From a virus: a stretch of DNA of 40,360 nt. Under the pieces are notes generated by a model. It saw only the letters and a list, made by a program, of their open reading frames with translations. It searched no databases and had not been told where the DNA came from. Location: positions 1-40,360 of the IMG/VR virus record IMGVR_UViG_3300010392_000262. One strand, written 5' to 3'. This document shows positions 5,569 through 36,522 of the stretch, piece after piece. A program made the position numbers and the translations under genes. Within the stretch, counting starts at the first letter, position 1; each line of letters opens with the position of its first letter.

Positions 5569-5793
5569 ATGAATAAAGAAGAAAGAAAAGAATCTATAAA
5601 TTTTTTAATAGGTTGGCATTGTTTAGATCCAGAATATGTTTATAAATTATCCGATGATGAAATAGAGAATGAGTGCCACAAACAGGCTTTAATTGAAACT
5701 AATAACTTTTTAGAAGTTTCTGGATTGCGTTTTTCCGATGACGGAGATTTGGAGCCAGATGAAAATGATTGGGAGGATATATTTGAGTCTTAA
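5569..5793 (+). CDS. Small acidic hypothetical protein, coupled to the RNA polymerase
   Basis: A 74-residue acidic protein. I place the start at ATG 5569 because GAAGGGAGA lies at 5557-5564; the upstream in-frame ATG at 5548 would overlap that site. The C-terminal 25 residues are dominated by Asp and Glu. Its last 11 bases overlap the TTG start of the RNA polymerase gene, and the polymerase ribosome binding site (GGGAGG at 5771) lies within this gene, so the two are probably translationally coupled. Function unknown; an accessory factor for the polymerase is possible. Confidence 0.65.
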   Translation: MNKEERKESINFLIGWHCLDPEYVYKLSDDEIENECHKQALIETNNFLEVSGLRFSDDGDLEPDENDWEDIFES

Positions 5794-8383
5794 TAAACAA
5801 ATACATCTATATGGTGTGGGTACAGATTATTTTTTCAGCAAAAAAGAAGACAGGATAAATGATAAATTAATTAAAGCTAGGATAACAAAGAATACATGGC
5901 AAGATAAGATTGTTGATTTGAAGAATATGTCAGATAAAAAACTCAATAAATTAACAGATGAAGAAATCCTATTAATTGATGAACGTAATGATGAATATAA
6001 GAATAGGATTTCCGATGTAAATAAAGTGATTAAAACATATAAGGCTAAATTACTAAATAAATTACAATACAACAACAATAAAAGAAAACTCAATGCCTCT
6101 AAGTTAAAAACAAGTGATATCATATCTTCATTTGATTCCACGCTAACGAGGGTTCTTGGATGTAATGTTGGTGATGTAACACAGGAGGTAATGTTTGTAC
6201 AGACTTACTATTTTGAAGTTGCTGAGTCCCTAATAAAGAAAGGTTTCACATGGAATGGTGAAAGATATATAGCGTATACTGCATCAGCAGGGCAAATAAG
6301 GTTGAAAAAGTTTGTTGTAATAAAAGAGTCTACATATAAAAAGCATAAGATGACACTCACTTGTGGACTTACAGAAGAAATTATTAATGGAAAAGGAGGA
6401 ATAAATACAAACAAATACTTAGCCTATCTGGCATTAAACAATAGTGCCACTGAAGTATGGAGCGCGTTTGATATTGATAAATCCATAGTAGTAGACGATT
6501 TTGAAACAAATGTAGGTGGCTTAGTGGATTATATTGACTATGAAACATATAAAATAACACCAAAAAAATATATGAGCGTACCAATTCCTCATACTGACGG
6601 GATTGGAATGTATTTATCGGACAAAAATAGAATGGTTAGAGCACCGTGGATAAAAGGACTTATGACTCCATTTAGATATGATAAATTTATATTGAAATAC
6701 AAAGACGAATATCCTGATGCTAGATTTATAAAGGACATTTATGGAAAAGAGTACGACGTTATAGCAGACGATATACAATGTATATTTACAAAATCACAGT
6801 TTAAGATGTGGAAGTATTATGAGAGTTGGGATCATTATAAAGATGAATATAAAAAATATGGCTGTCATGCATCTTACTGTAACGAGGAGGTTTCAAATCC
6901 ACCAAATGCAAAAATAGGATATCAAATGCTTCAAACATTGACAGATATATCTGATGAGGAAATTGATACTCTAATGGAGACCACCATAGCAAATATAACA
7001 GATATGGGCGAGAATGTTGGCGTAATGTTAAAAGTTTTGGGAGCTGGAAAAGATAATCATAGAAAAAATAACCACCAAAAGGCGTTGAGTTTATATCCAG
7101 AACTACTACAAGATCCACATAGTAGAGAGACACTCAAATCTATAAAAGAAAGCCTTGTAAAAGAAGGGAAGGGGGGCAAAATAAGTATAAATGGAAAATA
7201 TACCTTTATATGTCCTGATATGTATGCTTTTTCGGAATGGCTATTCCTAGGTATAAAAAATCCAACTGGATTATTGAAAAGTAACGAAGTGAGTTGTAGG
7301 CTATATCCAAAAGTAGAAAAGTTGGATGTATTAAGAAGCCCTTCTTTGTATAGAGAGCATTTTATAGGTAAAAACACATTTGATGGGGACATACGAAAAT
7401 GGTTTACAACTAGTGCAATTTACATGAGTTCACACTGTTTTGCTAGCCTACTGCTAATGTATGATGTAGATGGAGACCAGAGTTTGGTTTGTGCAGATCA
7501 AACACTAGTGAGAGTGGCTGAAAGAAATATGAAAGGGATTCATCCATTGTATTATGACATGAAAAAAGCACCATCTCAAATACTCAATAGAGATACAATT
7601 TATGCAGGGTTGGACATGGCGTATAAAAATACAAGTATAGGTGTGTATAGTAATAATATAACTAAGGTCTGGAATAGTGATGAACCAAATTTAGATGTAA
7701 TCAAATTATTATGTCTTGAAAGTAATTTTTCAATTGACAGTGCAAAAACACTATTTTTCATAGAAAGACCACAAAATGAGAATAATTTGATTTCCAGATA
7801 TACTAAATCAAAAATGCCACATTTTTTCACATACGCAAAAGATAAGCCAGAGGGAAGGGTGTTACCACTGGATATAAATACAACTATGGGTAGGATCGAA
7901 TCAAGGATACCTGACAAAAGACTTACCTTTAAAAGTAATAACTTGACTAGATTTGATTACACAATGCTCATGAAAGATAAGGGAATTGTACTGGATGACG
8001 ATATTGTGGAAAAGTACAAATACCTAAACAGAAAGGTTGGGCATTACTCAAAACGCAACAAAAATGATGATGGCAGTCATATGTATTATATCTATAATGA
8101 AATAAGAGAAGAATTGCTATCAATGAGAGATGATGATCATGATGTTGTAGATATAATAATTGCATATGCATATGGGAATAAGTCAAAATATAAAAACACG
8201 ATATGGTCATGTTTCGGTGATATCATACTTAACAATTTGAAAGTGAATATGATAAAAAAAGAAATGGACATCACAATGGCGTGTGGTGTGTGCGGAGAAC
8301 GGGTGGCAAAAAAAACAAGGAATCAACTGTATTGCGACAGGTGTGCATATGAGGTTAAATTATCTAGAAAAAGATCAAAATAA
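5783..8383 (+). CDS. yonO: Single-chain DNA-dependent RNA polymerase, YonO type
   Basis: An 866-residue protein. The start is TTG 5783, six bases after GGGAGG; an upstream in-frame start at 5738 would lie inside the previous gene without such a site. Residues 560-566 read Y-D-V-D-G-D-Q, the DxDGD signature of the double-psi beta-barrel active site of multisubunit and YonO-like polymerases, with Asp561, Asp563 and Asp565 expected to hold the catalytic magnesium. About 40 residues earlier, R-S-P-S-L-Y-R-E-H (518-526) matches the beta-prime RxPTLHR element. The SPbeta YonO protein is of similar length (about 890) and transcribes late genes. A C-terminal zinc ribbon is present (Cys834, 837, 851, 854). 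Late-gene transcription here is inferred from position and family. Confidence 0.88.
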   Translation: MSLNKQIHLYGVGTDYFFSKKEDRINDKLIKARITKNTWQDKIVDLKNMSDKKLNKLTDEEILLIDERNDEYKNRISDVNKVIKTYKAKLLNKLQYNNNKRKLNASKLKTSDIISSFDSTLTRVLGCNVGDVTQEVMFVQTYYFEVAESLIKKGFTWNGERYIAYTASAGQIRLKKFVVIKESTYKKHKMTLTCGLTEEIINGKGGINTNKYLAYLALNNSATEVWSAFDIDKSIVVDDFETNVGGLVDYIDYETYKITPKKYMSVPIPHTDGIGMYLSDKNRMVRAPWIKGLMTPFRYDKFILKYKDEYPDARFIKDIYGKEYDVIADDIQCIFTKSQFKMWKYYESWDHYKDEYKKYGCHASYCNEEVSNPPNAKIGYQMLQTLTDISDEEIDTLMETTIANITDMGENVGVMLKVLGAGKDNHRKNNHQKALSLYPELLQDPHSRETLKSIKESLVKEGKGGKISINGKYTFICPDMYAFSEWLFLGIKNPTGLLKSNEVSCRLYPKVEKLDVLRSPSLYREHFIGKNTFDGDIRKWFTTSAIYMSSHCFASLLLMYDVDGDQSLVCADQTLVRVAERNMKGIHPLYYDMKKAPSQILNRDTIYAGLDMAYKNTSIGVYSNNITKVWNSDEPNLDVIKLLCLESNFSIDSAKTLFFIERPQNENNLISRYTKSKMPHFFTYAKDKPEGRVLPLDINTTMGRIESRIPDKRLTFKSNNLTRFDYTMLMKDKGIVLDDDIVEKYKYLNRKVGHYSKRNKNDDGSHMYYIYNEIREELLSMRDDDHDVVDIIIAYAYGNKSKYKNTIWSCFGDIILNNLKVNMIKKEMDITMACGVCGERVAKKTRNQLYCDRCAYEVKLSRKRSK

Positions 8384-8559
8384 CGGTGCAAGCTACAGAC
8401 TCGTTGCAATCACTACATCTCAGCGGTTTTCAAATTTTTCCAAAATCCTACAAGTGTTGCAACTGCTACATTCTTAAAATTACACCTCTCGAGATAATGG
8501 TCGAGTAGGAAGAATACAAGATATACACAGAAAATTGAACCTTCCCACAATATATAGTT

Positions 8560-8581
8560 AGGGGATGAAAAATCGTCCCCT
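8560..8581 (+). terminator. Possible terminator after the RNA polymerase gene
   Basis: AGGGGA (8560-8565) pairs with TCCCCT (8576-8581) around a ten-base loop. The stem is GC-rich, but only a broken T stretch follows, so termination may be inefficient. Confidence 0.45.
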
Positions 8582-8619
8582 TCTAATTAACTTAGCTTTC
8601 TTATATATCTCCTTTCAAA

Positions 8620-9430: not shown

Positions 9431-9736
9431 ATGCTATGTGATGGATGTATATTCAAATGTGGTGTAACAAATATAGAAGATTGTAAAGGCTTTATGCCTA
9501 AAATAACTGAAGAGCAAAGATTGGAATTGCTTGAACAGGTCAGAGAACAAAATATGTCAATTCCACAATTTTGTAAAGATTATAATTTGAAGTCAGTGTA
9601 CTTTAAAAAGCAGTTATATGGAAAAATGGAGATGACTTGGAAAACATATAGCAAATTACTTGACCGTTTATTAGAAAAAGAAGAATGGGAATTTGAAGAG
9701 AAGCGATTTGAAGAAAGTTGTGTGGTTAATGGGTAA
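9431..9736 (+). CDS. Cys-rich hypothetical protein with helix-turn-helix-like segment
   Basis: A 101-residue protein starting at ATG 9431. Cysteines at 3, 6, 10 and 18 could bind zinc. Residues 25-65 read like a helix-turn-helix region (acidic helix, M-S-I-P-Q-F-C turn, then Y-N-L-K-S-V-Y-F-K-K recognition-like helix). The last 20 residues are acidic. Its stop overlaps the ATG of the following RNase gene (ATGGGTAA), so the two are probably co-translated. DNA binding is plausible but unproved. Confidence 0.65.
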   Translation: MLCDGCIFKCGVTNIEDCKGFMPKITEEQRLELLEQVREQNMSIPQFCKDYNLKSVYFKKQLYGKMEMTWKTYSKLLDRLLEKEEWEFEEKRFEESCVVNG

Positions 9737-11195
9737 AAATAAAAAAAAGATACATATAACATATAAAGCATATGGTGCAGCTCAACGTGTAACGGGTTCT
9801 GCTTCATTATATACAATAAAGGTTAATGAAAAAGAAACAAAAATATTGGTTGACTTAGGAGCAATACAAGATGGTAAATTTTCAACAAAACAACTATTCG
9901 ATATGAACAAGATTGACTTTGACATGAATGATATCGAATATGTTCTTCTTACGCACGCCCATCTTGATCATTGTATGAATCTTACACAATTACCAAGAGT
10001 GGATTTCAATGGTACTATATATTGTACCGCACTAACTCAAGAAATAATGGAACACATTACATTTGATGGTGTAAAAATACATGCGTCAACCGCAGAATAC
10101 CTAAATAAATCTAGTAAGAGCAAAATATACCCATACATGGATATGAGGTCTAGAGAAAAAATGCTATCGTTTGTTAGAGGGTATGATCTAGATAGATGGA
10201 TTAATATTGATGAAAATATCAGATTTAAATTCATAGGTGCCGGACATGTGAGCGGAGCTGCTTCAGTTATTCTAGAAGTAAAAGATGGGTATGAGCGAGA
10301 ATGTATATTTATCTCTGGGGATACCTCTGGAGGTAGAGATATTCCATTCACAAAGGCATTGGATTTGGAGCGTGAAAAGTATTCATTTACGACTATGCAA
10401 TTGGAGAGTACATATGCAGATAATTATATTCCACAAAAAGAAGACCATGTAATTATAGAAGAATTGTATGAGTTGGTGAATCAAACTTGCAAAATAGCAA
10501 AAGGAATAGCATTAATTCCTGCATTTTCATTTGCTAGATCAACAAACATATTTCTGTATTTAAAGAAGATGTATGAAAAATACAATGAATTGAGTGAGTT
10601 CCCTGTATATGGAATAAGCCCACTAATGTCCAAGTGCCATAAAAGTATTGGGCAAAATCCAGAATTCTACGATAAAAAATGGATGGGTGAGATGGACTTA
10701 TTTTCATGGGATAAATTAATTATGATTACGGATTATGACGATATGGTTCGTATAATAAACGAAGCCAAGCCTTGTATAATAGTATCAAGTTCCGGGATGG
10801 GCGTAAAAGGTATGAATAGTTTTATATTGCCAAAAATAGTGAGTGGGAGAAAGAATTCTGTAAGTTTCACAGGATATTTAGCGGCTGGAACTGAGGGATA
10901 TAAGTTGATCAATAAGGAACAAAAGACCATTACAAGTATGATTGATGGTAAAAAGTATACAGCACATGTGCGTGCAAAACTTCAGAATATTTCTGGATTG
11001 AGTTCGCACTGTTCTGGACAAGAAATTATTGAACAAATTTTGAAAACCGAAAAAAAGAAAGTCAAAAATATTGTGTTAGTCCATGGTGACAAAGAAAGAT
11101 GTGACGGGTTTAAGAGGATGCTTGAGGATGTTTATTCTGGTTATTCTGTAAACATTCATGTGCCAAGAATTGGGCAGACAATAAAACTAACTTAA
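9729..11195 (+). CDS. Beta-CASP metallo-beta-lactamase RNase (CPSF73/RNase J superfamily)
   Basis: A 488-residue protein. ATG 9729 is chosen because it couples to the upstream stop and begins just ahead of the first beta strands; the upstream in-frame start would lie deep in the previous gene. Zinc-binding motifs are present: H-A-H-L-D-H (76-81), His173 in G-A-G-H-V-S-G, Asp198 in S-G-D-T-S. Beta-CASP motifs follow: E-S-T-Y (226-229), P-A-F-S-F-A-R (264-270), V-S-S-S-G-M (352-357) and H427 in S-S-H-C-S. The length fits KH-less members of the family, which cleave RNA as endonucleases, some also as 5' exonucleases. In a phage late module it may mature or degrade transcripts; target unknown. Confidence 0.88.
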   Translation: MGKNKKKIHITYKAYGAAQRVTGSASLYTIKVNEKETKILVDLGAIQDGKFSTKQLFDMNKIDFDMNDIEYVLLTHAHLDHCMNLTQLPRVDFNGTIYCTALTQEIMEHITFDGVKIHASTAEYLNKSSKSKIYPYMDMRSREKMLSFVRGYDLDRWINIDENIRFKFIGAGHVSGAASVILEVKDGYERECIFISGDTSGGRDIPFTKALDLEREKYSFTTMQLESTYADNYIPQKEDHVIIEELYELVNQTCKIAKGIALIPAFSFARSTNIFLYLKKMYEKYNELSEFPVYGISPLMSKCHKSIGQNPEFYDKKWMGEMDLFSWDKLIMITDYDDMVRIINEAKPCIIVSSSGMGVKGMNSFILPKIVSGRKNSVSFTGYLAAGTEGYKLINKEQKTITSMIDGKKYTAHVRAKLQNISGLSSHCSGQEIIEQILKTEKKKVKNIVLVHGDKERCDGFKRMLEDVYSGYSVNIHVPRIGQTIKLT

Positions 11196-11213: not shown

Positions 11214-11825
11214 ATGAAGAGGGAAGAAAGTAGTGTATTAGCATTAGGAACTGATAAAATTTATGATTCAATTATTAGCCATAATTACGATAATAGGACA
11301 ATCATTATTGGCGAAGTAGACTCCCTATTGTTAGAATATGCGGTAGAATACGTTTTACGCTGGAATCGCGAAGACAAAAATATCCCGACAAACAAAAGAA
11401 AACCAATTAAACTACATATAAACAGCCCAGGTGGATCGGTATATAGTGGAATGAATTTAATAAATGTAATTCAAAACTCTAAAACACCTGTACACGCAGT
11501 AGTTCAAGGCTATGCGATGAGTATGGGATTGTTGATCCTTATTGCTTGCCACAAAAGATATGCATTCAATGATAGTATTTTATTACTTCATGATGGATCT
11601 ATGGGTGGCTACAACTCTACTGCAAAGATGAGAGATTTGGCTAGATTCACAGAAAAACAAGAAGAGCGAACTAAAAGCTTCATTATTCAAAATACAAAGA
11701 TAACTGACGAATTATATGATGAGATGTATACAAAAGAATGGTATATGTACAGTGATGAGGCATTTGAGCATGGATTCATAGATGGTATAATTGGAAAAGA
11801 TTTGAAAATGGATGATATATTATAA
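11214..11825 (+). CDS. ClpP-family serine protease
   Basis: A 203-residue protein starting at ATG 11214 after AAAAGGAGA. It has the ClpP core: I-N-S-P-G-G-S (69-75) oxyanion region, G-Y-A-M-S-M-G (99-105) with nucleophile Ser103, and L-L-L-H-D-G (123-128) with His126. The third catalytic position aligns with Glu175 in T-K-E-W-Y rather than the usual Asp, which needs structural checking. Length matches bacterial ClpP. Phage ClpP-like enzymes often mature capsids, but here it lies upstream of the terminase and a separate protease-scaffold gene is present at 17369, so another role (regulated proteolysis or maturation) is open. Confidence 0.85.
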   Translation: MKREESSVLALGTDKIYDSIISHNYDNRTIIIGEVDSLLLEYAVEYVLRWNREDKNIPTNKRKPIKLHINSPGGSVYSGMNLINVIQNSKTPVHAVVQGYAMSMGLLILIACHKRYAFNDSILLLHDGSMGGYNSTAKMRDLARFTEKQEERTKSFIIQNTKITDELYDEMYTKEWYMYSDEAFEHGFIDGIIGKDLKMDDIL

Positions 11826-12850: not shown

Positions 12851-13879
12851 ATGGCAGCAAAAAAGAAGACAACAGTTAAAAAGGATACAATAAAGCTATA
12901 TTGTAGAAGATGTGAAAAAACACAGAGTGATGCAAATTATTATGAAGCAGTATCTCGAATAGATAAAAATGGCAAAATGAGTATTTGTAAGAAATGCACA
13001 GGTGAAATATATGATGGATATTTTAAAAAATATAATGATTTGACTACCGCAATTTATAAGACATGCCAAACAGTGGATGTGATGTTCTCAGAACAAGCAT
13101 TAGATGGGTTAAAAGCACATATGTTGAAGACAATTGAAAAAGGTGGAGAGTTAAAGTCGCCTTTTGGGACATATAAAAGTAAATTGAGCAGCACTTGTAA
13201 AACCAATGGTGTAGTGGATATGGATTTTTCGCATAGTGATAAAATTTCCTCTGATGAAGAATGTGTTGAAATTGATGAATATCAATACGACAATGATGAC
13301 TTAAAGTTAAAATGGGGCGACTATCCTCATGATACATTAATTAGATTTGAAAGAAAATATGATTTCTTAAAAAATAACTATAATGAAAAGACGAGCATGC
13401 ATACTGAGGCTATTTATAAGTATGTAAGATATTCTGTATTGGAAGAAATATCAAATGAGGCTGGAGATACTGGATCAGCAAAGACATATAATGATCTAGC
13501 AAATAAAGCTGCTACTGCAGCTAAGATTAATCCTAGTCAATTATCGAAAGCAGACTTGATGGACGGTCTTAATAGCTTTTCGGAATTATCATCTGCTGTA
13601 GAACGTGTAGTTGATGTAGTTAAAATACTTCCTAAGTTTAAATATCGAGCAAATGACGCATTAGATTTTACTATTTGGTGTTATGTGAATTATGAAAGAA
13701 ATCTAAATGGATTACCAGAAGTTCCGTATGAGGAAGTATATGCATTCTACGATAGAAAAGTTGAAGAATATATAGAACAATATGGAGATCCTTATGAATT
13801 ATTTACAGATGATCCAACTATAAAAAATAGAGATTCCATAAAGAAGTTCATAGCTCCTTTTAAGGATGGTGAAGAATAA
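12851..13879 (+). CDS. Zinc-finger protein ahead of the terminase, candidate small terminase subunit
   Basis: A 342-residue protein. ATG 12851 is the in-frame start behind AAAGGAGTG; the ATG four bases earlier is in another frame. An N-terminal zinc-ribbon pattern (Cys18, Cys21, Cys46, Cys49) is followed by a helical, acidic body and an Asp/Glu-rich tail. Its stop overlaps the ATG of the large terminase by one base, the usual place for the DNA-recognition (small) subunit. It is larger than most small subunits (about 150-200 residues), so this assignment rests on position and possible nucleic-acid binding rather than a family match. Confidence 0.7.
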   Translation: MAAKKKTTVKKDTIKLYCRRCEKTQSDANYYEAVSRIDKNGKMSICKKCTGEIYDGYFKKYNDLTTAIYKTCQTVDVMFSEQALDGLKAHMLKTIEKGGELKSPFGTYKSKLSSTCKTNGVVDMDFSHSDKISSDEECVEIDEYQYDNDDLKLKWGDYPHDTLIRFERKYDFLKNNYNEKTSMHTEAIYKYVRYSVLEEISNEAGDTGSAKTYNDLANKAATAAKINPSQLSKADLMDGLNSFSELSSAVERVVDVVKILPKFKYRANDALDFTIWCYVNYERNLNGLPEVPYEEVYAFYDRKVEEYIEQYGDPYELFTDDPTIKNRDSIKKFIAPFKDGEE

Positions 13880-15606
13880 TGCCATCTTATGGAAATTTTC
13901 AAAGTGATAATAAAAAGTTTACAAACTTATCAAACAGAAGTAACCATAATCCAGAATTCAATTCATCAGTTAAACCAACTGATGATAAATCAAAAAACAA
14001 ATTTGATGACAACATGGATAAATATACTGAATTTTTATCATGGGCTAGATTCTATCCAGACTTATTTTTAGATTTAATTAAGCCAAAGATAGGTGCATTA
14101 AAATTACATTCGGATCAGCGTATATTTCTAAGAAGCACAGTTAGATTCGTTAGTTTATATGGGGTATTTCCCAGGGGCTGGGGAAAAACATTCAATGAAG
14201 TCCTAGCTATGTATGTAGTATCAGTGCTATTTCCAAATATGGAACAGGCGTTGACTGCACAAACGAAAGAAAATGCGGCTTCACTATTAAAAGATAAACA
14301 TACTGAAATAATAAAATATTACCCATGGTTTAAAAATGAAATATATAAACCAAAATTCAGTAAAAATGATGCAGAAGTGTTATTTTTAAATGGTTCAAGG
14401 GTTGATATTTTAGCGAACGCACAAACCTCAAAAGGACAACGTAGAAAAAAAATCATGATTGAAGAAGCAGCACTTCTTGATAATGTTACATTTGAAGATG
14501 CGTTAGAACCAATAGTAGAGATAGGAAGAACTACTGGTGGAGAACTAGCAATAGTAAATCCGGAAGAATTAAATCAACAGATAAATTTCTTCACGACATC
14601 TGGATTCAAAGGAACTGATGAGCATGTTAGAAGCCAAACGATGGTGAAAAGCATGGTTGAATTAAAGGGTGAAATTGTATTAGGATCGGATTGGAAATTA
14701 GGATGTTGGAATGGAAGAGGTTCAAATAGAAAACAGATAGAAAAAAAGAAAAAAAGAATGTCTGCTGTTGCATTCGCACAAAACTACGAGTCAAAATGGG
14801 TAGGGAGTGTAGAAAACTCATTGGTGGACATACAAGCGCTTATGCGAATAAGAAGTTTGAATGAGCCGGTATTTGAGCCTAGAAGTGGGTATGAATATTT
14901 TCTAGGAGTCGATGTTGCACGTTCTCAAAATACTGCAAACAACCAATCATCAATAGTTGTAATAGAAGTAGAGAGATATCCTAGTGGAAGAATTAAAAGT
15001 GCAAACTTAGTAAATTTAATTAACGTATCCAATGCATTGAATTTTAGCTCTCAGGCGCTAGAGGTAAAAAGAGTAAAAAATAAATACAACGCATCTATGA
15101 CAATTTGCGACGGAAATGGTTTAGGTCAGGGTCTAATCGATGCATTAATGCAGTCTCAAGATGATCCAATTAATGGAGAGACGTATTTGGCATGGAACAC
15201 GACAAACACTGATGCTATTCCAGACGATAGCAATTATGAGACATGTCTATATGATTTAAAGGCACAAGGTGTCAATGTATCAGTAATAGTAAACTTCATA
15301 GACTATGTTGACAGTGGGAAATTAAGAATATTGGAAAAAAAACAATATTCAGACTATGATGTGAATGATAAAAAATATTATGAGACAAATATATTACCAT
15401 TCGTACAGACGGACTTCTTAATAGAAGAGATTGTAAATTTACAGTTCATAGATGGTAAAAAAATAAAACAAGTAGTAAAAAAAGTAAACAAAGATAGATA
15501 TTCTGCATTGGCGTATGCTCTATGGTATATTAAGAATTTTGAAGATAATACCATAGAAGATAAGGGCAGTGATATAGATTATCTAGCAAGATATTTGAGA
15601 TTTTAG
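13879..15606 (+). CDS. terL: Terminase large subunit
   Basis: A 575-residue packaging motor. The ATPase half shows Walker A P-R-G-W-G-K-T (98-104) and Walker B I-M-I-E-E (192-196). The nuclease half has Asp345 in F-L-G-V-D-V-A-R, Asp411 in T-I-C-D-G-N-G and Asp539 in N-K-D-R-Y-S-A-L, the acidic triad expected for the RNase H-like domain that cuts concatemers. It would bind the portal, the next gene, and pump DNA into proheads. It starts at ATG 13879, overlapping the preceding stop by one base. In SPbeta the corresponding gene would be yonF, an assignment from gene order that I recall rather than searched. Confidence 0.92.
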   Translation: MPSYGNFQSDNKKFTNLSNRSNHNPEFNSSVKPTDDKSKNKFDDNMDKYTEFLSWARFYPDLFLDLIKPKIGALKLHSDQRIFLRSTVRFVSLYGVFPRGWGKTFNEVLAMYVVSVLFPNMEQALTAQTKENAASLLKDKHTEIIKYYPWFKNEIYKPKFSKNDAEVLFLNGSRVDILANAQTSKGQRRKKIMIEEAALLDNVTFEDALEPIVEIGRTTGGELAIVNPEELNQQINFFTTSGFKGTDEHVRSQTMVKSMVELKGEIVLGSDWKLGCWNGRGSNRKQIEKKKKRMSAVAFAQNYESKWVGSVENSLVDIQALMRIRSLNEPVFEPRSGYEYFLGVDVARSQNTANNQSSIVVIEVERYPSGRIKSANLVNLINVSNALNFSSQALEVKRVKNKYNASMTICDGNGLGQGLIDALMQSQDDPINGETYLAWNTTNTDAIPDDSNYETCLYDLKAQGVNVSVIVNFIDYVDSGKLRILEKKQYSDYDVNDKKYYETNILPFVQTDFLIEEIVNLQFIDGKKIKQVVKKVNKDRYSALAYALWYIKNFEDNTIEDKGSDIDYLARYLRF

Positions 15607-15617
15607 GAGGTGAATAA

Positions 15618-17153
15618 ATGACAGATAAAGACAAGGAATTATTATCTGAACAAGAAGTTTGGGATGTTCTTGAATTTGCAAAAAGTGCGTCAACATACTA
15701 TAATAATTACTTTACACCAGACTTAGTAAACAACGCAATGAAAGATGTCAATATGAATCCTCTAGTTGCCGACCAAGATAAGATTGAAAAGGCACTACAA
15801 AATCCAAAAGATTCAGAAGAAGAATTAATAGGTTTTTCTCAATATTTTGAGCTTATAGATATGATATATAAACGATCATTATATTATATGGGTAATATGT
15901 TATCATTTGATTATACATATAGACCAATAACTACAAAGGCAGAAGCACTAAGCAAAGAGACTTATAAAAAAGATGAAGAACGGCTATTGGATTTTATGGA
16001 TAAATTCGATGTTAAAAAAGAATTTACCACAGTTAGCAGACAATTAATGAGACAGGAAACATTTTACAGTGTATTCAGAGATGATGGTGAAAGATATACA
16101 TTGCAAGAATTGCCTAGAAAATATTGTAAAATTACCGGAAGATGGGATTATGGTATATTATTTGATTTCGATATGTTATGGTTTCAACAACCATCAGTAG
16201 ATATAAATATGTATCCAGATTCTTTCAAGAAAATGTATATGGATTATTTCAATAATGAAGATTATACGCCGTCTAGACCGACTGGTATGAGAGATACATC
16301 ATTCACGTATTGGGTTCAAACTGATCCAGAAGATGGTTTCTGGGCATGGAAATTTGCGCCTGAGATTACTACACAGGTTCCATATTTTGCTCCGATGTTT
16401 AGTGATGTTGCATTGAGACCATTGATAAGAAATCTACAAAAAAATATCTATGTCTTACAAGCGCAACAAGTTATGATTGGTACAATACCGATGTTAAAAG
16501 ATAACAAATCTGGAAATGTAAAAGATATGCTAGCAGTAAGTCCAGAAACAATGGGTAACTTCTTGGGACTGTTGAAGCAAGGTTTGGATGATGCAATTAA
16601 GGTTTCTGCGGCACCATTCGACAACATAGAAAAAATCTCGTTTGACAGTACAGAGAAAGATATTCTTAATAGCTATACCAAGAGTTTAGCAGCTACATCT
16701 GTATCTGCCGGAAGATTAATTTATTCTGGTGATAAGCAAACAGCATTGGAAACGGAATTATCAGTGGCTGTAGATGAATATATTATGGAATATCTATACC
16801 CACACTTTGAGGCTTTTCTTGAGTATCATATCAATAAAAGAACTAAAAATTATAAGTTTAAAATTAAATTAGAAGGTACTAATATGCCTAATAATAGAAA
16901 AAGAAGATTTGATCAAGCTATGGCGTTAGCAGATAAAGGAATTGTACTTCCACAAAAGATTGCAGCATCAATCGGAATGAGTCCTAGAGATTTAGAAATG
17001 CAAGTGGATATGGCGTTGGCATCTGGTTTTGCAGATAAGTTAAAACCATTGTTAAGCTCATACACTATGACGGGCGACTCAAAAGAAGCTAATCGTCCAA
17101 AAAAGGATACAGGTGACTTGTCTGATAGTGGAATGGCAAATAGAGATAATTAA
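15618..17153 (+). CDS. Portal protein
   Basis: A 511-residue protein starting at ATG 15618 after GGAGGTG and directly behind the large terminase. It has the features of phage portals: an acidic helical N-terminal part, a central alpha/beta region with W-F-Q-Q-P and Y-W-V-Q-T-D segments, a long helix around residues 270-310 (R-N-L-Q-K-N-I-Y-V-L-Q), and a C-terminal part with T-S-V-S-A-G-R-L-I-Y-S-G, typical of this family. Twelve copies would form the DNA gate at one capsid vertex. Identification rests on position and pattern; it corresponds to SPbeta YonE by gene order. Confidence 0.8.
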   Translation: MTDKDKELLSEQEVWDVLEFAKSASTYYNNYFTPDLVNNAMKDVNMNPLVADQDKIEKALQNPKDSEEELIGFSQYFELIDMIYKRSLYYMGNMLSFDYTYRPITTKAEALSKETYKKDEERLLDFMDKFDVKKEFTTVSRQLMRQETFYSVFRDDGERYTLQELPRKYCKITGRWDYGILFDFDMLWFQQPSVDINMYPDSFKKMYMDYFNNEDYTPSRPTGMRDTSFTYWVQTDPEDGFWAWKFAPEITTQVPYFAPMFSDVALRPLIRNLQKNIYVLQAQQVMIGTIPMLKDNKSGNVKDMLAVSPETMGNFLGLLKQGLDDAIKVSAAPFDNIEKISFDSTEKDILNSYTKSLAATSVSAGRLIYSGDKQTALETELSVAVDEYIMEYLYPHFEAFLEYHINKRTKNYKFKIKLEGTNMPNNRKRRFDQAMALADKGIVLPQKIAASIGMSPRDLEMQVDMALASGFADKLKPLLSSYTMTGDSKEANRPKKDTGDLSDSGMANRDN

Positions 17154-25136: not shown

Positions 25137-26234
25137 GTGGGAAAATTAAAAAAGCACGATGAATTTATTTCTAACTTGAGAATAAAAAATAAAAAAATGT
25201 ATGATGAGCTTGAATTTTTAACAGAATATGAATATGCAAATCAGTATATTTTAGCAATGACAAAATATGGAACAATAAGAACAAAGCCAAGCAAGCTTTT
25301 ATCAGGTAGAGGTTACACTATAGAATCCGCGGTAAATAAAACGGAATTTTGGATAAATAAAGCAATTGAAGTACATGGAAGTAAGTATGATTATTCCTTG
25401 GTTGATTATGTTGGTAATAAAAAAGAAGTGACGATTATATGCAAGACACATGGAGAGTTTAAGCAAAAATCAATTAGTCATTTATTGGGGTACGGGTGCA
25501 GAAAATGTGGAACTAGTATGGGAAGTTTAAAACAATTAAAATCAAATTCTGAATTCATAAAAGAATTAAAGTCGAGACAGCCCAAACTTTTATCAAGTCT
25601 AAAAAATATTGGTAAATATGAAGGATATAATAATAACATATTAGTTGAAGACGATTTTGGAAAACTTAAAACAACCCCGTGTAGACTGTTGGCTGGGAAA
25701 TTACCAAATATAAAATCAGCAGTTAATAAAACAGAATATTTTAAATCAATATTAAAGTATAAAAGAGGTTCTGAGTACGATTACTCCGAAGTCAAATATG
25801 TGGATTCTGAAACAAAAATAACAATTATATGCAAAAAACACGGAGAGTTCACACAGCTTCCATACAATCATTTGGGTGGTCAAGATTGTCCGCATTGTAG
25901 AGAGTCTAAAATGGAATCTAAAATAAGAATAATATTGAATGACGAGAATATAGGTTTCATACAAGAACATACTTTTGAAGATTGTAAAAACAAAGGAAGG
26001 CTTATATTTGATTTCTATGTTCCATCAGTTAGAGTCTGTATTGAGGCGGATGGCATTCAACACTTCGAGCCTATTGAATTTTTTGGGGGAGAGAATGGTT
26101 TTTTAAAGACAAAAGTAAATGATGAAATAAAAACGGAATACTGTGAAAAAAACGGGATTACCTTAATACGGATTCCTTATTTTAAATTTGATGATATAGA
26201 AGAAATATTGATTAGAGAGGTGATAAATAAATGA
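25137..26234 (+). CDS. Free-standing homing endonuclease, EDxHD/Vsr-like
   Basis: A 365-residue protein starting at GTG 25137 after GGGAGG. It has two similar N-terminal units (about 10-125 and 140-255), each ending with Y-D-Y-S-x-V, I-I-C-K-x-H-G-E-F and a C-x-x-C pair, probably DNA-binding zinc modules. The C-terminal nuclease shows Glu260, Asp292 in F-D-F-Y-V-P, the A-D-G-I-Q-H-F segment with His309, and Asp329, the pattern of EDxHD homing endonucleases related to Vsr. Such enzymes cut homing sites in relatives lacking the gene. It sits between virion genes after a terminator, typical of an inserted selfish gene. Confidence 0.82.
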   Translation: MGKLKKHDEFISNLRIKNKKMYDELEFLTEYEYANQYILAMTKYGTIRTKPSKLLSGRGYTIESAVNKTEFWINKAIEVHGSKYDYSLVDYVGNKKEVTIICKTHGEFKQKSISHLLGYGCRKCGTSMGSLKQLKSNSEFIKELKSRQPKLLSSLKNIGKYEGYNNNILVEDDFGKLKTTPCRLLAGKLPNIKSAVNKTEYFKSILKYKRGSEYDYSEVKYVDSETKITIICKKHGEFTQLPYNHLGGQDCPHCRESKMESKIRIILNDENIGFIQEHTFEDCKNKGRLIFDFYVPSVRVCIEADGIQHFEPIEFFGGENGFLKTKVNDEIKTEYCEKNGITLIRIPYFKFDDIEEILIREVINK

Positions 26235-29921: not shown

Positions 29922-30950
29922 ATGGGAAAAAGATCAACAGTATATAATAGTATAGTTGGGGAAAAGTATGAATTAGTAAATGAAGATAACCAAGAGTTAT
30001 TGGAAGAATGGAAAGAGTACATGACATCGGTTGATAGGTCTCAAAAAACCATAGAAGGTTATAGTAGCGACTACAAAATTTGGGCAGTGTTCTGCTATGA
30101 AAATTGCAAAGATAAGTATTTCGTAGATATTACAAAACGAGATATCATAAAATTTCAAAATTATTGTTTAAAATTAGGGCATTCTCCTTCTAGAGTTAGG
30201 AGATTAAGATCAACTCTGAGCTCTTTGAGTAATTATATCGAGAATATATTAGATGATGAATACCCAGATTTTAGAAATATAATTAACAAAATAGAAGCAC
30301 CAGCTATGACTAAGGTGAGGGATAAATTAGTATTAGATACGGATGAGTTTGTGGAACTGATGGATAAATTGATATCGGAGGGTAAAGAACAAGAAGCGTG
30401 TGCACTGGCTTTAGCTTGCTTTTCTGGCTCAAGGAAGGCTGAGTTGGCTAGATTTAAGGTTGAATATTTTTCTGAAGAAAATGTAGAACATGGATTATAT
30501 AAAACTCCAGAGAAGATAATTTCAAAAGGACGCGGAAGTCAAGGTAAGAAAATCTATAAGTGGACGGTTAAAAGTTGCTTTGAAAAATATTTAAATATAT
30601 GGCTTAAAAAACGAGATGAAATTGGGATAGATAGTGAATGGCTATTTGTTACGAAGAATGATGACGGTGAATATATTCAAGCAAAAATTTCAACATTAAA
30701 TAGTTGGGCGGATACCATAACTAGAGTGCTTGGTCAGAAATTTTATTTTCATGCAGCCAGACATCATTTCACAACTTTTTTGTCGAAATTCAAGGTTCCA
30801 CAACACGTAATACAAGCAATAAATTCATGGGAAAGTCTTGAAATGGTAAAAATTTACAATGATCAGGAAGCGTCTGAGGAATTTGGTGATTACTTTGGAG
30901 ATGACGGAATCAAGGAATCAACGGAGGGATCAATAAATAATTTAAAATAA
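29922..30950 (+). CDS. Tyrosine recombinase / integrase family protein
   Basis: A 342-residue protein starting at ATG 29922 after GGGAGTGG. An N-terminal SAM-like domain (about 25-120) precedes a catalytic domain with Arg171 in S-G-S-R-K-A-E-L, lysines near 202-210, H277-A-A-R280, Trp303 in the position usually His or Trp, and Tyr312 in K-I-Y-N-D. All catalytic residues are present, so it should cut and rejoin DNA. Placement inside the late virion genes, close before the tape measure, matches SPbeta YomM as I recall it; SPbeta itself integrates with a serine recombinase. Whether this enzyme integrates the phage or acts during lytic growth is open. Confidence 0.85.
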   Translation: MGKRSTVYNSIVGEKYELVNEDNQELLEEWKEYMTSVDRSQKTIEGYSSDYKIWAVFCYENCKDKYFVDITKRDIIKFQNYCLKLGHSPSRVRRLRSTLSSLSNYIENILDDEYPDFRNIINKIEAPAMTKVRDKLVLDTDEFVELMDKLISEGKEQEACALALACFSGSRKAELARFKVEYFSEENVEHGLYKTPEKIISKGRGSQGKKIYKWTVKSCFEKYLNIWLKKRDEIGIDSEWLFVTKNDDGEYIQAKISTLNSWADTITRVLGQKFYFHAARHHFTTFLSKFKVPQHVIQAINSWESLEMVKIYNDQEASEEFGDYFGDDGIKESTEGSINNLK

Positions 30951-32853: not shown

Positions 32854-35800
32854 TTGGCTGAAGATTTCAGAGTATCCCTCATAGGTGAATTAAACGAGGC
32901 AGCAACAAAAAAAGAGATAGAATCGGATTTAAAAAAGATAGAAAAAAGTGTTGGTAATATTGACATTGGTAAATTAACATCAATGAATCAAACCTTTAAA
33001 AAGACAAAAGAAGGAACAAAAGAATTAAACAAAGAGATTTTGACTTTTAAAAATTCTCTTGGACAAACAACAAGAGTGACAAAGGATGCTCAAGGAAATA
33101 TTGAAAAAGTATCTCAGTCAATGAAAGTTTTAAAAACAGAGTCAAAAAAAACTACTGATACTACTAAAAAATTGACAGATGCAACTAAAGAGGGAGCAAA
33201 AGCTTCGATGTCATTTGGTCAACAAACACTCGAAGCGGCGAAAAAATTCGGAATTTGGTCAGCAGTGACCTCGATCTATTTCGCAGCAATTCGTGGACTT
33301 AAACAAATGGTGGATGAGGTTAAAAACCTTGATGACGCACTCGTAGAAATGTCAAAAGTTTCTGAATTGTCTGGAGAATCACTCCAACGATTTGGGGATA
33401 TAGCAGCAGATGTAGGTAAAAAAATAAACGCAACCGCTGCTGACGTAGTTAATGCTGCTGCAGATTTCTCAAGAATGGGATTTGGAGAAGAAGAATCTCT
33501 TCGATTAGCAGAAGATGCTCTGGTATTGACTAAAATAGCAGACGGAATTACAGAAGTCGATGAAGCAACCAAGGCATTAACTTCTACATTAAAAGGTTTT
33601 AACATGGATGCGTCTGAAAGTAGACATATAATTGATGCATTGAATGAAGTTTCAAATAATTTTGCAATAAATACAGACGATTTAGCAGAAGGGCTTAGAC
33701 GTACTGCCGGTGTAATGGCACAATCTAATACATCATTCGAAGAGACAATAGGACTGATCACTGGAGCGCAAGAATCTTTGCAGCAAATCGAAAAAGTGTC
33801 AAGTGGATTAATTACCATTTCTACCAGATTAAGGAAAGTGGGAGAATCTACAGAAGACGTTAATGGACTTACTGTAAAATTAGATGAAGCATTTAGAAAA
33901 TACACTGATGGTGCTGTAAGAATAGAAGATGCAAATGGATCAATGAGGTCAACATATGACATATTGACTGATTTGGCACAAGTTTGGGATACATTAGATG
34001 ATAAGTCTCAAGCATATTTAGGATTTTTAGCCTCAGGGACTAGGCAAACACCTGTTCTTAATTCTCTAATGAGCAATCTCAACAACACAATTAGTGCAAC
34101 TAGCACAGCTATGGATTCGGCGGGTTCAGCACAAGAAGAGTTTAATAAAGTAATGAACAGCTTACAAGGTAGACTCGATAAGCTTGGTGCTACTTGGAGT
34201 AGGATCGCAACTGATTTTATTAGCAGTGGATTCTTAAAAATGTTGTTAGATATGGTAACTGAAATATCATCATTGGTTGAATCAGTTGGAATGTTGAATA
34301 TAGTTTTATTGGGATTATCAGTAATATTCGCCAAAAATGCAAGCAAAATGCTGCCATTCCTAGATGGATTAGTAAGTATGGGTATTGGATTCGAAACAAT
34401 AGGCATAAAAGCTACATTGGCTGCAGCCGGAGTAACCGGATTACAGATAGCCATGGGTGGAATAGCTATAGTGGTTGGTGCAGTTGCCGCTGCATTCGTA
34501 ATATTAAATAAACAGCATCAAGAATTCATTAGAGACACAAAAGAATCAAATGAAGAATTAGAAATATATATAAAACAATGGGAAAAACTTAATGAAGTGC
34601 AACGTGAGAATGCCAAACTCAAGGCGAATGAAATTGTTGCAGATTTACGAACAGAATATAAAGAAGCGAAAGAAGAACTTGTAGGACTAAACGAAGAGCT
34701 TGATAGACTAGATAAAGCCCTAGAAATAGAAAACATGGGTAACCAGACTGATAATGCTGAGAATTTATCTAAAGCAGTTTCAGAGCTAAGAGATAGACAG
34801 TCAGAGTTGAATCTAGTTATAGAAACATTTGAAGATGCTTTGGCGATATCCAATGGTTCTTTAGATGAAAAAACAAAAAAAGAAAAAGAGGTACGGGAAA
34901 CGTCAATTGCGTTGACCGAATCATGGAAATCTCAATTAGAAACAAATGAAGAAGTAATAAAATCTTTAAAACAATCAATTACAATTTATACAAAAGTTCA
35001 AGATAAAATTAAAGAAATTACAAAAGATTACGAATTCATGTCTGATGCGGGCAAGGAACAGGCTAGGGCATTCATACAAAATGAAATCGATAAATCGAAA
35101 AAGCTTAAAGAGGCAGTTCTTGAACGTATAAAACTCTACCAGGCTGAATTCGATGCAATGCTAAAATTGATCATGATGGGAGAAGAAACACTAACCACTG
35201 GTCAGCTTAAAAGATTCACAGAACTCAGTAGCGGAATTGGTGCACTTGTAGAACGAGTGGAAGAAATTACAATTTCTACAAATAAACTGGAATCTACTTT
35301 TGATGATATCACAAAAACTACAGAAGAAACGACCAAAGCATTAAAAGACCTTTCATCTCAAATTGAGTCAGAAAATGTCAAAGCTGTAGAGAAATACCGC
35401 GACACCATCGTCGAAGCCTTGGATGAGGAAAAAGAACTTATTGATCGTAATAAGGAAGCATGGGAGCGTGATTTTGAAGACCGTCAAACTGCTTCTGATC
35501 GATATTATGAAGATTTATTGGACTCATATGATGCTGAGACAGACGCATTAAAAGAAAAACGTGAAATTGAAGAAGAAATAGCGGATATACAAAAGACTCA
35601 AGTTGAATTAACAAAACTTCAAGAGAAATTAGCTGATATTTCCAAGCAACGTAATGTTCGCGTATTAACCGCAAGTGGATGGCAATGGGTTGCTGATCCT
35701 TCAGAAATTGCAAAAGCCAATGAAGAAATAGCAGATATGGAAGAAACTTTGGCTGAGCAACAACAGGCTAAATTAGAAGCCGATCAAGACCGTTCTAGAG

Positions 35801-36522
35801 AGGCTACACGTCGTCACTATGAAGAAGAAAAACTCATAGTAGATAGAGCGTTCGAAGATGAACAAACTATCGTAGAACGTGGATATGAAGATCAGTACAA
35901 TACAATAGACTTTTGGCTAGATGAAATAAAAGATGAGGAATCATCAAATTATGCAGATCGTATATCCAACTTACAAACATTTGTAAATAATTACAATGCT
36001 GAAATGGCTAAGATGGGTGGAGGAGCAATAGGTACACCAAAAACTCCAACTATTCAAGATCCGGGTGGAACTCCAACATCACAAAGGGATGAAACAATCC
36101 AACAAATGAAACTGAATAGTGCTCAATGGGGTGCAGCTTCTGAGACGGAAAAGAAAAGATTAGCTGACGAAAACCTAAAGCTAGGTGGAAGTATTGGTTG
36201 GAGCAGAAATCCTGCTGGAGAATGGATAGATGAGTCTGGAAAACGTGCGTATGCGAATGGTGGATTAAATAATTATACTGGAGATGCGGCAATGCATGGA
36301 ACATCAACACGTCCAGAAATGGTATTAAATAATACTCAAGCTGCTGGTTTATTTAACTTTGTAAAAAGTTTAAGCAATATGGACATGTCATCGATGATGA
36401 ATAAAACACCAGTTTCATCTGGTGGAGGCGACACATATAATCTTAAAATAATGGCTCCAAATGGTGCTACATTGAGTGGATTATTAACACAAGCAAAACA
36501 AATGTCCAAACATGGGAGATAG
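32854..36522 (+). CDS. Tail tape-measure protein
   Basis: A 1222-residue protein starting at TTG 32854 after GGTGGTG. Residues about 130-330 match the TP901-type minor tail core (helices with N-L-D-D-A-L-V-E-M-S-K, then A-A-D-F-S-R-M-G). A hydrophobic span around 475-555 may insert into the host membrane. Long charged coiled coils fill 555-1050. The end has the common phage motif Y-A-N-G-G then H-G-T-S-T-R-P-E-M-V-L-N, and a final helix. Using the rule of about 0.15 nm per residue, the tail would be near 180 nm, in the siphovirus range. It is the expected partner of tail tube and baseplate genes. Confidence 0.93.
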   Translation: MAEDFRVSLIGELNEAATKKEIESDLKKIEKSVGNIDIGKLTSMNQTFKKTKEGTKELNKEILTFKNSLGQTTRVTKDAQGNIEKVSQSMKVLKTESKKTTDTTKKLTDATKEGAKASMSFGQQTLEAAKKFGIWSAVTSIYFAAIRGLKQMVDEVKNLDDALVEMSKVSELSGESLQRFGDIAADVGKKINATAADVVNAAADFSRMGFGEEESLRLAEDALVLTKIADGITEVDEATKALTSTLKGFNMDASESRHIIDALNEVSNNFAINTDDLAEGLRRTAGVMAQSNTSFEETIGLITGAQESLQQIEKVSSGLITISTRLRKVGESTEDVNGLTVKLDEAFRKYTDGAVRIEDANGSMRSTYDILTDLAQVWDTLDDKSQAYLGFLASGTRQTPVLNSLMSNLNNTISATSTAMDSAGSAQEEFNKVMNSLQGRLDKLGATWSRIATDFISSGFLKMLLDMVTEISSLVESVGMLNIVLLGLSVIFAKNASKMLPFLDGLVSMGIGFETIGIKATLAAAGVTGLQIAMGGIAIVVGAVAAAFVILNKQHQEFIRDTKESNEELEIYIKQWEKLNEVQRENAKLKANEIVADLRTEYKEAKEELVGLNEELDRLDKALEIENMGNQTDNAENLSKAVSELRDRQSELNLVIETFEDALAISNGSLDEKTKKEKEVRETSIALTESWKSQLETNEEVIKSLKQSITIYTKVQDKIKEITKDYEFMSDAGKEQARAFIQNEIDKSKKLKEAVLERIKLYQAEFDAMLKLIMMGEETLTTGQLKRFTELSSGIGALVERVEEITISTNKLESTFDDITKTTEETTKALKDLSSQIESENVKAVEKYRDTIVEALDEEKELIDRNKEAWERDFEDRQTASDRYYEDLLDSYDAETDALKEKREIEEEIADIQKTQVELTKLQEKLADISKQRNVRVLTASGWQWVADPSEIAKANEEIADMEETLAEQQQAKLEADQDRSREATRRHYEEEKLIVDRAFEDEQTIVERGYEDQYNTIDFWLDEIKDEESSNYADRISNLQTFVNNYNAEMAKMGGGAIGTPKTPTIQDPGGTPTSQRDETIQQMKLNSAQWGAASETEKKRLADENLKLGGSIGWSRNPAGEWIDESGKRAYANGGLNNYTGDAAMHGTSTRPEMVLNNTQAAGLFNFVKSLSNMDMSSMMNKTPVSSGGGDTYNLKIMAPNGATLSGLLTQAKQMSKHGR

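Follow-up and report, generated by a model that had tools for sequence, protein, structure and literature searches.

A predicted YonO-family RNA polymerase at the head of a phage late operon and a putative compact late promoter that recurs in satellite-like elements

The stretch of viral DNA analysed here (40,360 nucleotides; hereafter the window) encodes on its plus strand an 866-residue protein that was found where the initial annotation had placed it and is preceded by a good ribosome-binding site (Table 1). The open reading frame opens with TTG; an in-frame ATG at 5738 could serve as an alternative start, but the N-termini of relatives line up at the TTG instead. The annotated catalytic DVDGD signature was recovered as well, and its DNA pattern has a single match in the whole contig. 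In an alignment of 38 homologues (SPbeta YonO included), D561, D563, G564 and D565 are invariant, as are R518, P520, L522, E525 and H526, and the same holds for the four cysteines (C834, C837, C851, C854) of a C-terminal module. The upstream R-S-P-S-L-Y-R element, which had been likened to the RxPTLHR of beta-prime and which we take to be its counterpart, includes R518, P520 and L522; its R524 varies.

Table 1. Positions of the features discussed (window coordinates unless another source is named; L numbers denote loci in other contigs or genomes).
Feature	Position	Strand	Basis
Ribosome-binding site GGGAGG of the polymerase gene	5771..5776	+	Sequence; 6 nt before TTG 5783
Predicted yonO-like single-chain DNA-dependent RNA polymerase, 866 aa	5783..8383	+	ORF, homology, alignment, fold
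R-S-P-S-L-Y-R element, residues 518-524	7334..7354	+	R518, P520, L522 invariant in 38 homologues
Catalytic DVDGD, residues 561-565	7463..7477	+	Sequence and 38-sequence alignment
C-terminal four-cysteine zinc-ribbon-like module (C834, C837, C851, C854)	8282..8344	+	Alignment
Putative late promoter AGATAATGGTCGAGTAGGAAGAAT, predicted start 8508	8492..8515	+	Position and conservation with L002
Leader hairpin GGAAG...CTTCC predicted at the 5' end of the late transcript	8508..8545	+	Folding; like helices enriched in relatives
Second leader hairpin GGGGATG...CGTCCCC	8555..8585	+	Similar hairpin in L002
Late operon following the putative promoter, reaching almost to the contig end	8681..40178	+	ORF and profile matches
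Head maturation protease	11214..11825	+	PHROG 94, E 4e-37
phrog_3314 protein, position of SPbeta yonG	12851..13879	+	Profile match and gene order
Terminase large subunit, yonF position	13879..15606	+	Profile match and SPbeta gene order
Portal protein, yonE position	15618..17153	+	PHROG 2739, E 1e-63
Tail tape measure protein	32854..36522	+	Profile match
SPbeta element, GGG at 2225219	B. subtilis 168, about 2225204-2225226		
yonO 3'-end relics just before the promoter array	L266:2133-2417; L267:14741-15181; L268:11580-11936		
Further yonO fragment in a satellite-like element	L280, from 3608		

Searches of phage records with tblastn aligned the protein with yonO of SPBc2 (NC_001884; 43.9% identity over 98% of the query, E=0) and with Psychrobacillus phage Perkons (44% identity), while its nearest relatives among viral contigs (L002-L004) reach up to 70% identity. 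The profile search suggested in the initial annotation returned phrog_8308 (E 1.5e-249), which also matches B. subtilis, and the Pfam family RdRP (PF05183, E=3e-10); given this latter match and the tblastn alignment to SPBc2 yonO, chance similarity can be excluded. The suggested structure prediction, an AlphaFold2 model with a pLDDT of 90.9, gave an RDR2/QDE-1-like fold, matched over its full length rather than overlaid barrel by barrel: in a Foldseek search of the PDB the only significant matches were RDR2 and QDE-1 structures (E 2e-18 to 1e-12), namely RDR2 (7w82) at E 2.4e-18 and QDE-1 (2j7n, 7y7t) at E about 1e-14, with a probability of 1.00 and 760-950 alignment columns spanning the whole model. 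A profile search of PDB sequences yielded no significant match for the polymerase core and weak zinc-ribbon matches to Rpb12 only.

The SPbeta enzyme is a biochemically proven RNA polymerase whose activity is abolished by substitution of the Asp triad, and both phage production and 37 late genes require it (PMC5467207). In the alignment with SPbeta YonO, the DxDGD triad of the window protein stands at a conserved column. Judged by full-length homology to SPbeta YonO, the invariant triad and the two-barrel-polymerase fold of the model, the window gene product is, as first proposed, a YonO-family single-chain polymerase, and it adds to an already known family. The remark that few such enzymes are characterised holds for biochemistry and not for sequence, where relatives are common: YonO-like polymerases are encoded in 129 viral-contig stretches and 104 genome stretches. 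The Pfam label and the RNA-dependent polymerases at the top of the fold search could conceivably speak for an enzyme that works on RNA templates like its eukaryotic fold relatives; however, the SPbeta enzyme strictly requires a DNA template in vitro (PMC5467207), and the window protein, orthologous to it over the full length at 44% identity, occupies the same late-operon setting, which makes such a template preference extremely improbable. Within the family, the yonO genes of six loci (L060, L076-L078, L080 and L081) are interrupted at one shared position, about residue 652, as expected of a self-splicing intron or a similar insertion. Cytobacillus kochii AcN7-3 has two yonO genes (L089 and L127), the latter followed by homologues of SPbeta yomW/V/U, with no terminase in that place.

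The long late operon claimed for this locus was borne out, with plus-strand genes running over about 31 kb and the polymerase gene at their head. The order after yonO is RusA-like protein, beta-CASP nuclease, head protease, metallophosphoesterase, phrog_3314 protein, terminase and portal, then phrog_3313, phrog_4147 and phrog_4088, and later an HNH endonuclease, an integrase, the tape measure and tail genes. The core parallels SPbeta yonG-F-E-D-C-B; in contrast, SPbeta has the HU gene yonN and a 1.7-kb non-coding region before yonK where the window has its RusA-like and beta-CASP genes. The beta-CASP nuclease (9693-11195), situated early in the operon, has as its best NCBIfam models archaeal aCPSF1 and type VII Cas14 (E 3e-56, far below the cut-offs) and is a possible RNA-processing or termination factor. 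The HNH endonuclease (25137-26234) is of the homing type and the integrase (29922-30950) of the tyrosine type; SPbeta carries its integrase yomM in a similar place.

When the window DNA was compared with that of the relatives at 70% identity, a conserved non-coding block (8457-8571) came to light directly after the polymerase gene; this counts as one comparison because L002, L003 and L004 give identical matches. At the equivalent place in other yonO loci, GATAATnGTCtnTAAGGGA recurs. An unseeded motif search of the 700 nt after yonO converged on a conserved coding segment and T-rich sequence, and the motif was therefore seeded by eye, followed by cross-validation and a collection-wide scan. The resulting weight matrix, built from 106 loci made non-redundant by their downstream sequence, scores at least 10 in 85 of them, as compared to 3.7% of dinucleotide shuffles; in five-fold held-out scoring, 87 of the 106 loci reach at least 8 bits (chance about 10%) and 75 at least 10 bits (chance 3.7%), and 68 loci have their top plus-strand bin, across the whole locus, directly after yonO. 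The element sits 48-137 nt past the yonO stop, is displaced to about +780 in two low-scoring loci and has no good match in about a fifth of the loci. Sites of at least 14 bits number 54 in the 370-nt bins after yonO versus 24 elsewhere when both strands of 1.76 Mb are counted. When 2.9 million viral contigs were scanned for TAATNGTCTNTAAGGGAR, 46 stretches were found, 17 of them located behind yonO (about 8 independent sequences) and 12 lying in satellite-like contigs; the reversed pattern, used as control, gave 39 stretches, none after yonO and none satellite-like. A search of the available literature library found no published YonO promoter. Five adjacent partial matches to the SPbeta region downstream of yonO were seen in one Bacillus genome (L168-L172; G005:C1:2969212-2969877) and are possibly a promoter array.

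The element varies with the polymerase clade, reading TAATnGTCTwTAAGGGA in Bacillales and TTTTGTGysTATAAGGGAA in the Lachnospiraceae type. Conservation in the Bacillales set is confined to positions -13 to +5 relative to the first G, with no -35 element or upstream box, on which grounds the idea that a host sigma factor reads the late operon from this element was rejected. Its GATAAT is similar to a -10 box, but it is absent from the Lachnospiraceae form, the conserved core runs on to +5, and SPbeta does not express its late genes when yonO is missing (PMC5467207), so that host recognition appears very improbable.

SPbeta coordinates were placed on genome G038, taken as B. subtilis 168 (100% match to SPbeta). 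With a spacer one base shorter, the SPbeta site scores 23.5, the next-highest value seen in the scanned SPBc2 stretches being 15.4. The main objection to this strong site comes from the published SPbeta 5' end (168 position 2225998; PMC5467207), which lies 779 nt downstream of the site's GGG and falls on GGATAATAGTCATTTATGAGGG, a weak match of 9.0 bits within a long hairpin of the non-coding region. Since it sits inside a hairpin of non-coding RNA, this end could reflect stable RNA processing or initiation at a second promoter; we favour these readings over the possibility that the strong site is not the promoter. The non-coding region itself (L082:15021-16703; 1.7 kb between yonN and yonK) is apparently structured and includes the Rfam DUF3800-VIII RNA.

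The window's own copy of the element, about 109 nt past the yonO stop, is a weak match with a score of 10.4, the top plus-strand score of the standard-spacing model in the window yet close to chance maxima (other window positions score 10.3-11.8). Its score being only 10.4, the promoter call draws on its position and on the block in common with L002, where the counterpart reads AGATAAATGCCGATAAGGAATAAC. The window variant is GATAATGGTCGAGTAGGAAG, as compared to GATAATCGTCATAAGGGAG in SPbeta. The RNA that would begin at 8508 is much more stably folded than its shuffled versions (z -3.7), and Rfam has no match in the window. Among 62 Bacillales-type loci, 37% show helices of at least 7 bp that use the 5' end, versus 13% in shuffles.

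In many Bacillales loci the element is followed by a hairpin that uses its GGGA, which, together with the published SPbeta 5' end lying elsewhere, could also be explained by a conserved start of a structured RNA leader, acting in antitermination or processing within a longer transcript, the polymerase still being YonO-like. This seems unlikely, however, as most Lachnospiraceae-type loci and the satellite arrays described below keep the element and lack the 5' hairpin, the conserved bases extend 13 upstream of the GGG, and tandem arrays before capsid operons resemble promoters. We consider it likely instead that the YonO-family polymerase of this SPbeta-like temperate phage transcribes the late genes from a compact element past its own stop codon. 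The polymerase would most likely be made by the host polymerase from an early or middle transcript, would then recognise the element directly and start at the GG of 8508, and the transcript from the 8492-8515 promoter would read through the packaging, head and tail genes. In Bacillales, transcripts may often begin with a hairpin built from their own GGGA 5' end, perhaps a protective one.

The 12 satellite-like contigs from the pattern scan share related capsid, terminase or portal genes; 11 of them measure 14-18 kb and one 68 kb. The family (L259-L268, L269-L295, L311-L323) consists of tail-less integrative elements of about 16 kb (mostly 14-18 kb), mostly without yonO, that encode a tyrosine integrase, a replication protein or primase, a BhlA-type holin, an SU10-type major capsid protein, a regulator, a terminase and an SPP1-type portal. 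No tape measure or tail genes were recognised in these elements, whose largest ORF spans 550 aa. Upstream of their capsid/terminase/portal operons, the YonO-type element occurs in 1-6 copies: ten contigs, read whole or in part, have 1-5 good sites each in the non-coding DNA that precedes the capsid operon, and many of these score 22-26 bits. A search by capsid protein alone gave 27 loci, partly non-independent because some contigs are also in the pattern scan. They contain 39 matches scoring 14 bits or more, all on the plus strand; 36 precede the capsid gene and 3 follow it. Such an upstream match is present in 13 of the 27, and some of the remaining 14 have none that is strong because the contig ends there. 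Whole genomes contributed 13 further loci, six of them with sites scoring 13 bits or more ahead of the capsid gene; one of these, L321, is a repeat of an element met before. About half of the family's loci carry putative YonO promoters before the capsid operon.

In three of these elements (L266-L268), yonO 3'-end relics of 94-146 codons adjoin the promoter array, and L285, which has the same capsid family, retains a long intact yonO portion of at least 511 codons; the elements may hence have carried and lost yonO, or have captured the junction. Several of their proteins resemble SPbeta late proteins (holin, yomJ and yomX regions); these are small homologues. None of the 15 element-carrying genomes contained a yonO gene, but none of 45 controls did either, so that the comparison does not discriminate. 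A search of the available literature library found no SPbeta satellites. We regard it as a lead that these are putative satellites or dependants of YonO phages that would borrow the YonO of their helper. The composite proposal, in which YonO uses a compact, clade-specific, T7-like promoter and tail-less capsid-encoding satellites parasitise YonO phages via arrays of this promoter ahead of their own late genes, with a kept or captured yonO 3' end, appears on balance probable.

Among single-chain relatives of the cellular RNA polymerase, YonO serves as the model, and the paper characterising it left undetermined the sequence that it recognises, leaving open its promoter and any need for helpers (PMC5467207). 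What is new here is a promoter prediction with clade variants, read from sequence, which offers a testable answer to this question for the YonO family, makes both promoter and helper questions amenable to in vitro experiments and could be a starting point for orthogonal expression systems. If true, a satellite family tuned to the promoter of a phage polymerase would exemplify a new way in which one mobile element parasitises another.

Compared with known systems, the window enzyme is closest to SPbeta YonO (Forrest et al. 2017, PMC5467207), with 44% identity over the full length, invariant catalytic residues and C-terminal cysteines, and the same phage-encoded setting upstream of a late operon, and differs in length (866 aa versus 839 aa). 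With QDE-1 and plant RDR2 it has in common the predicted single-chain two-barrel fold, whereas identity is about 13% and those are eukaryotic RNA-silencing enzymes. The satellite-like elements resemble capsid-forming phage satellites (cf-PICIs) in their size (mostly 14-18 kb), integrase, own capsid, terminase and portal and in having no recognisable tape measure; unlike cf-PICIs, they have promoter arrays for a single-chain phage polymerase. In T7-type systems a phage polymerase reads the late genes, and T7-type promoters (TAATACGACTCACTATAGGGAGA) are, like the YonO element, compact, without a -35 box, ending in TATAGGGA and followed by a 5' hairpin; the polymerases, however, are unrelated, and the resemblance is convergent or fortuitous.
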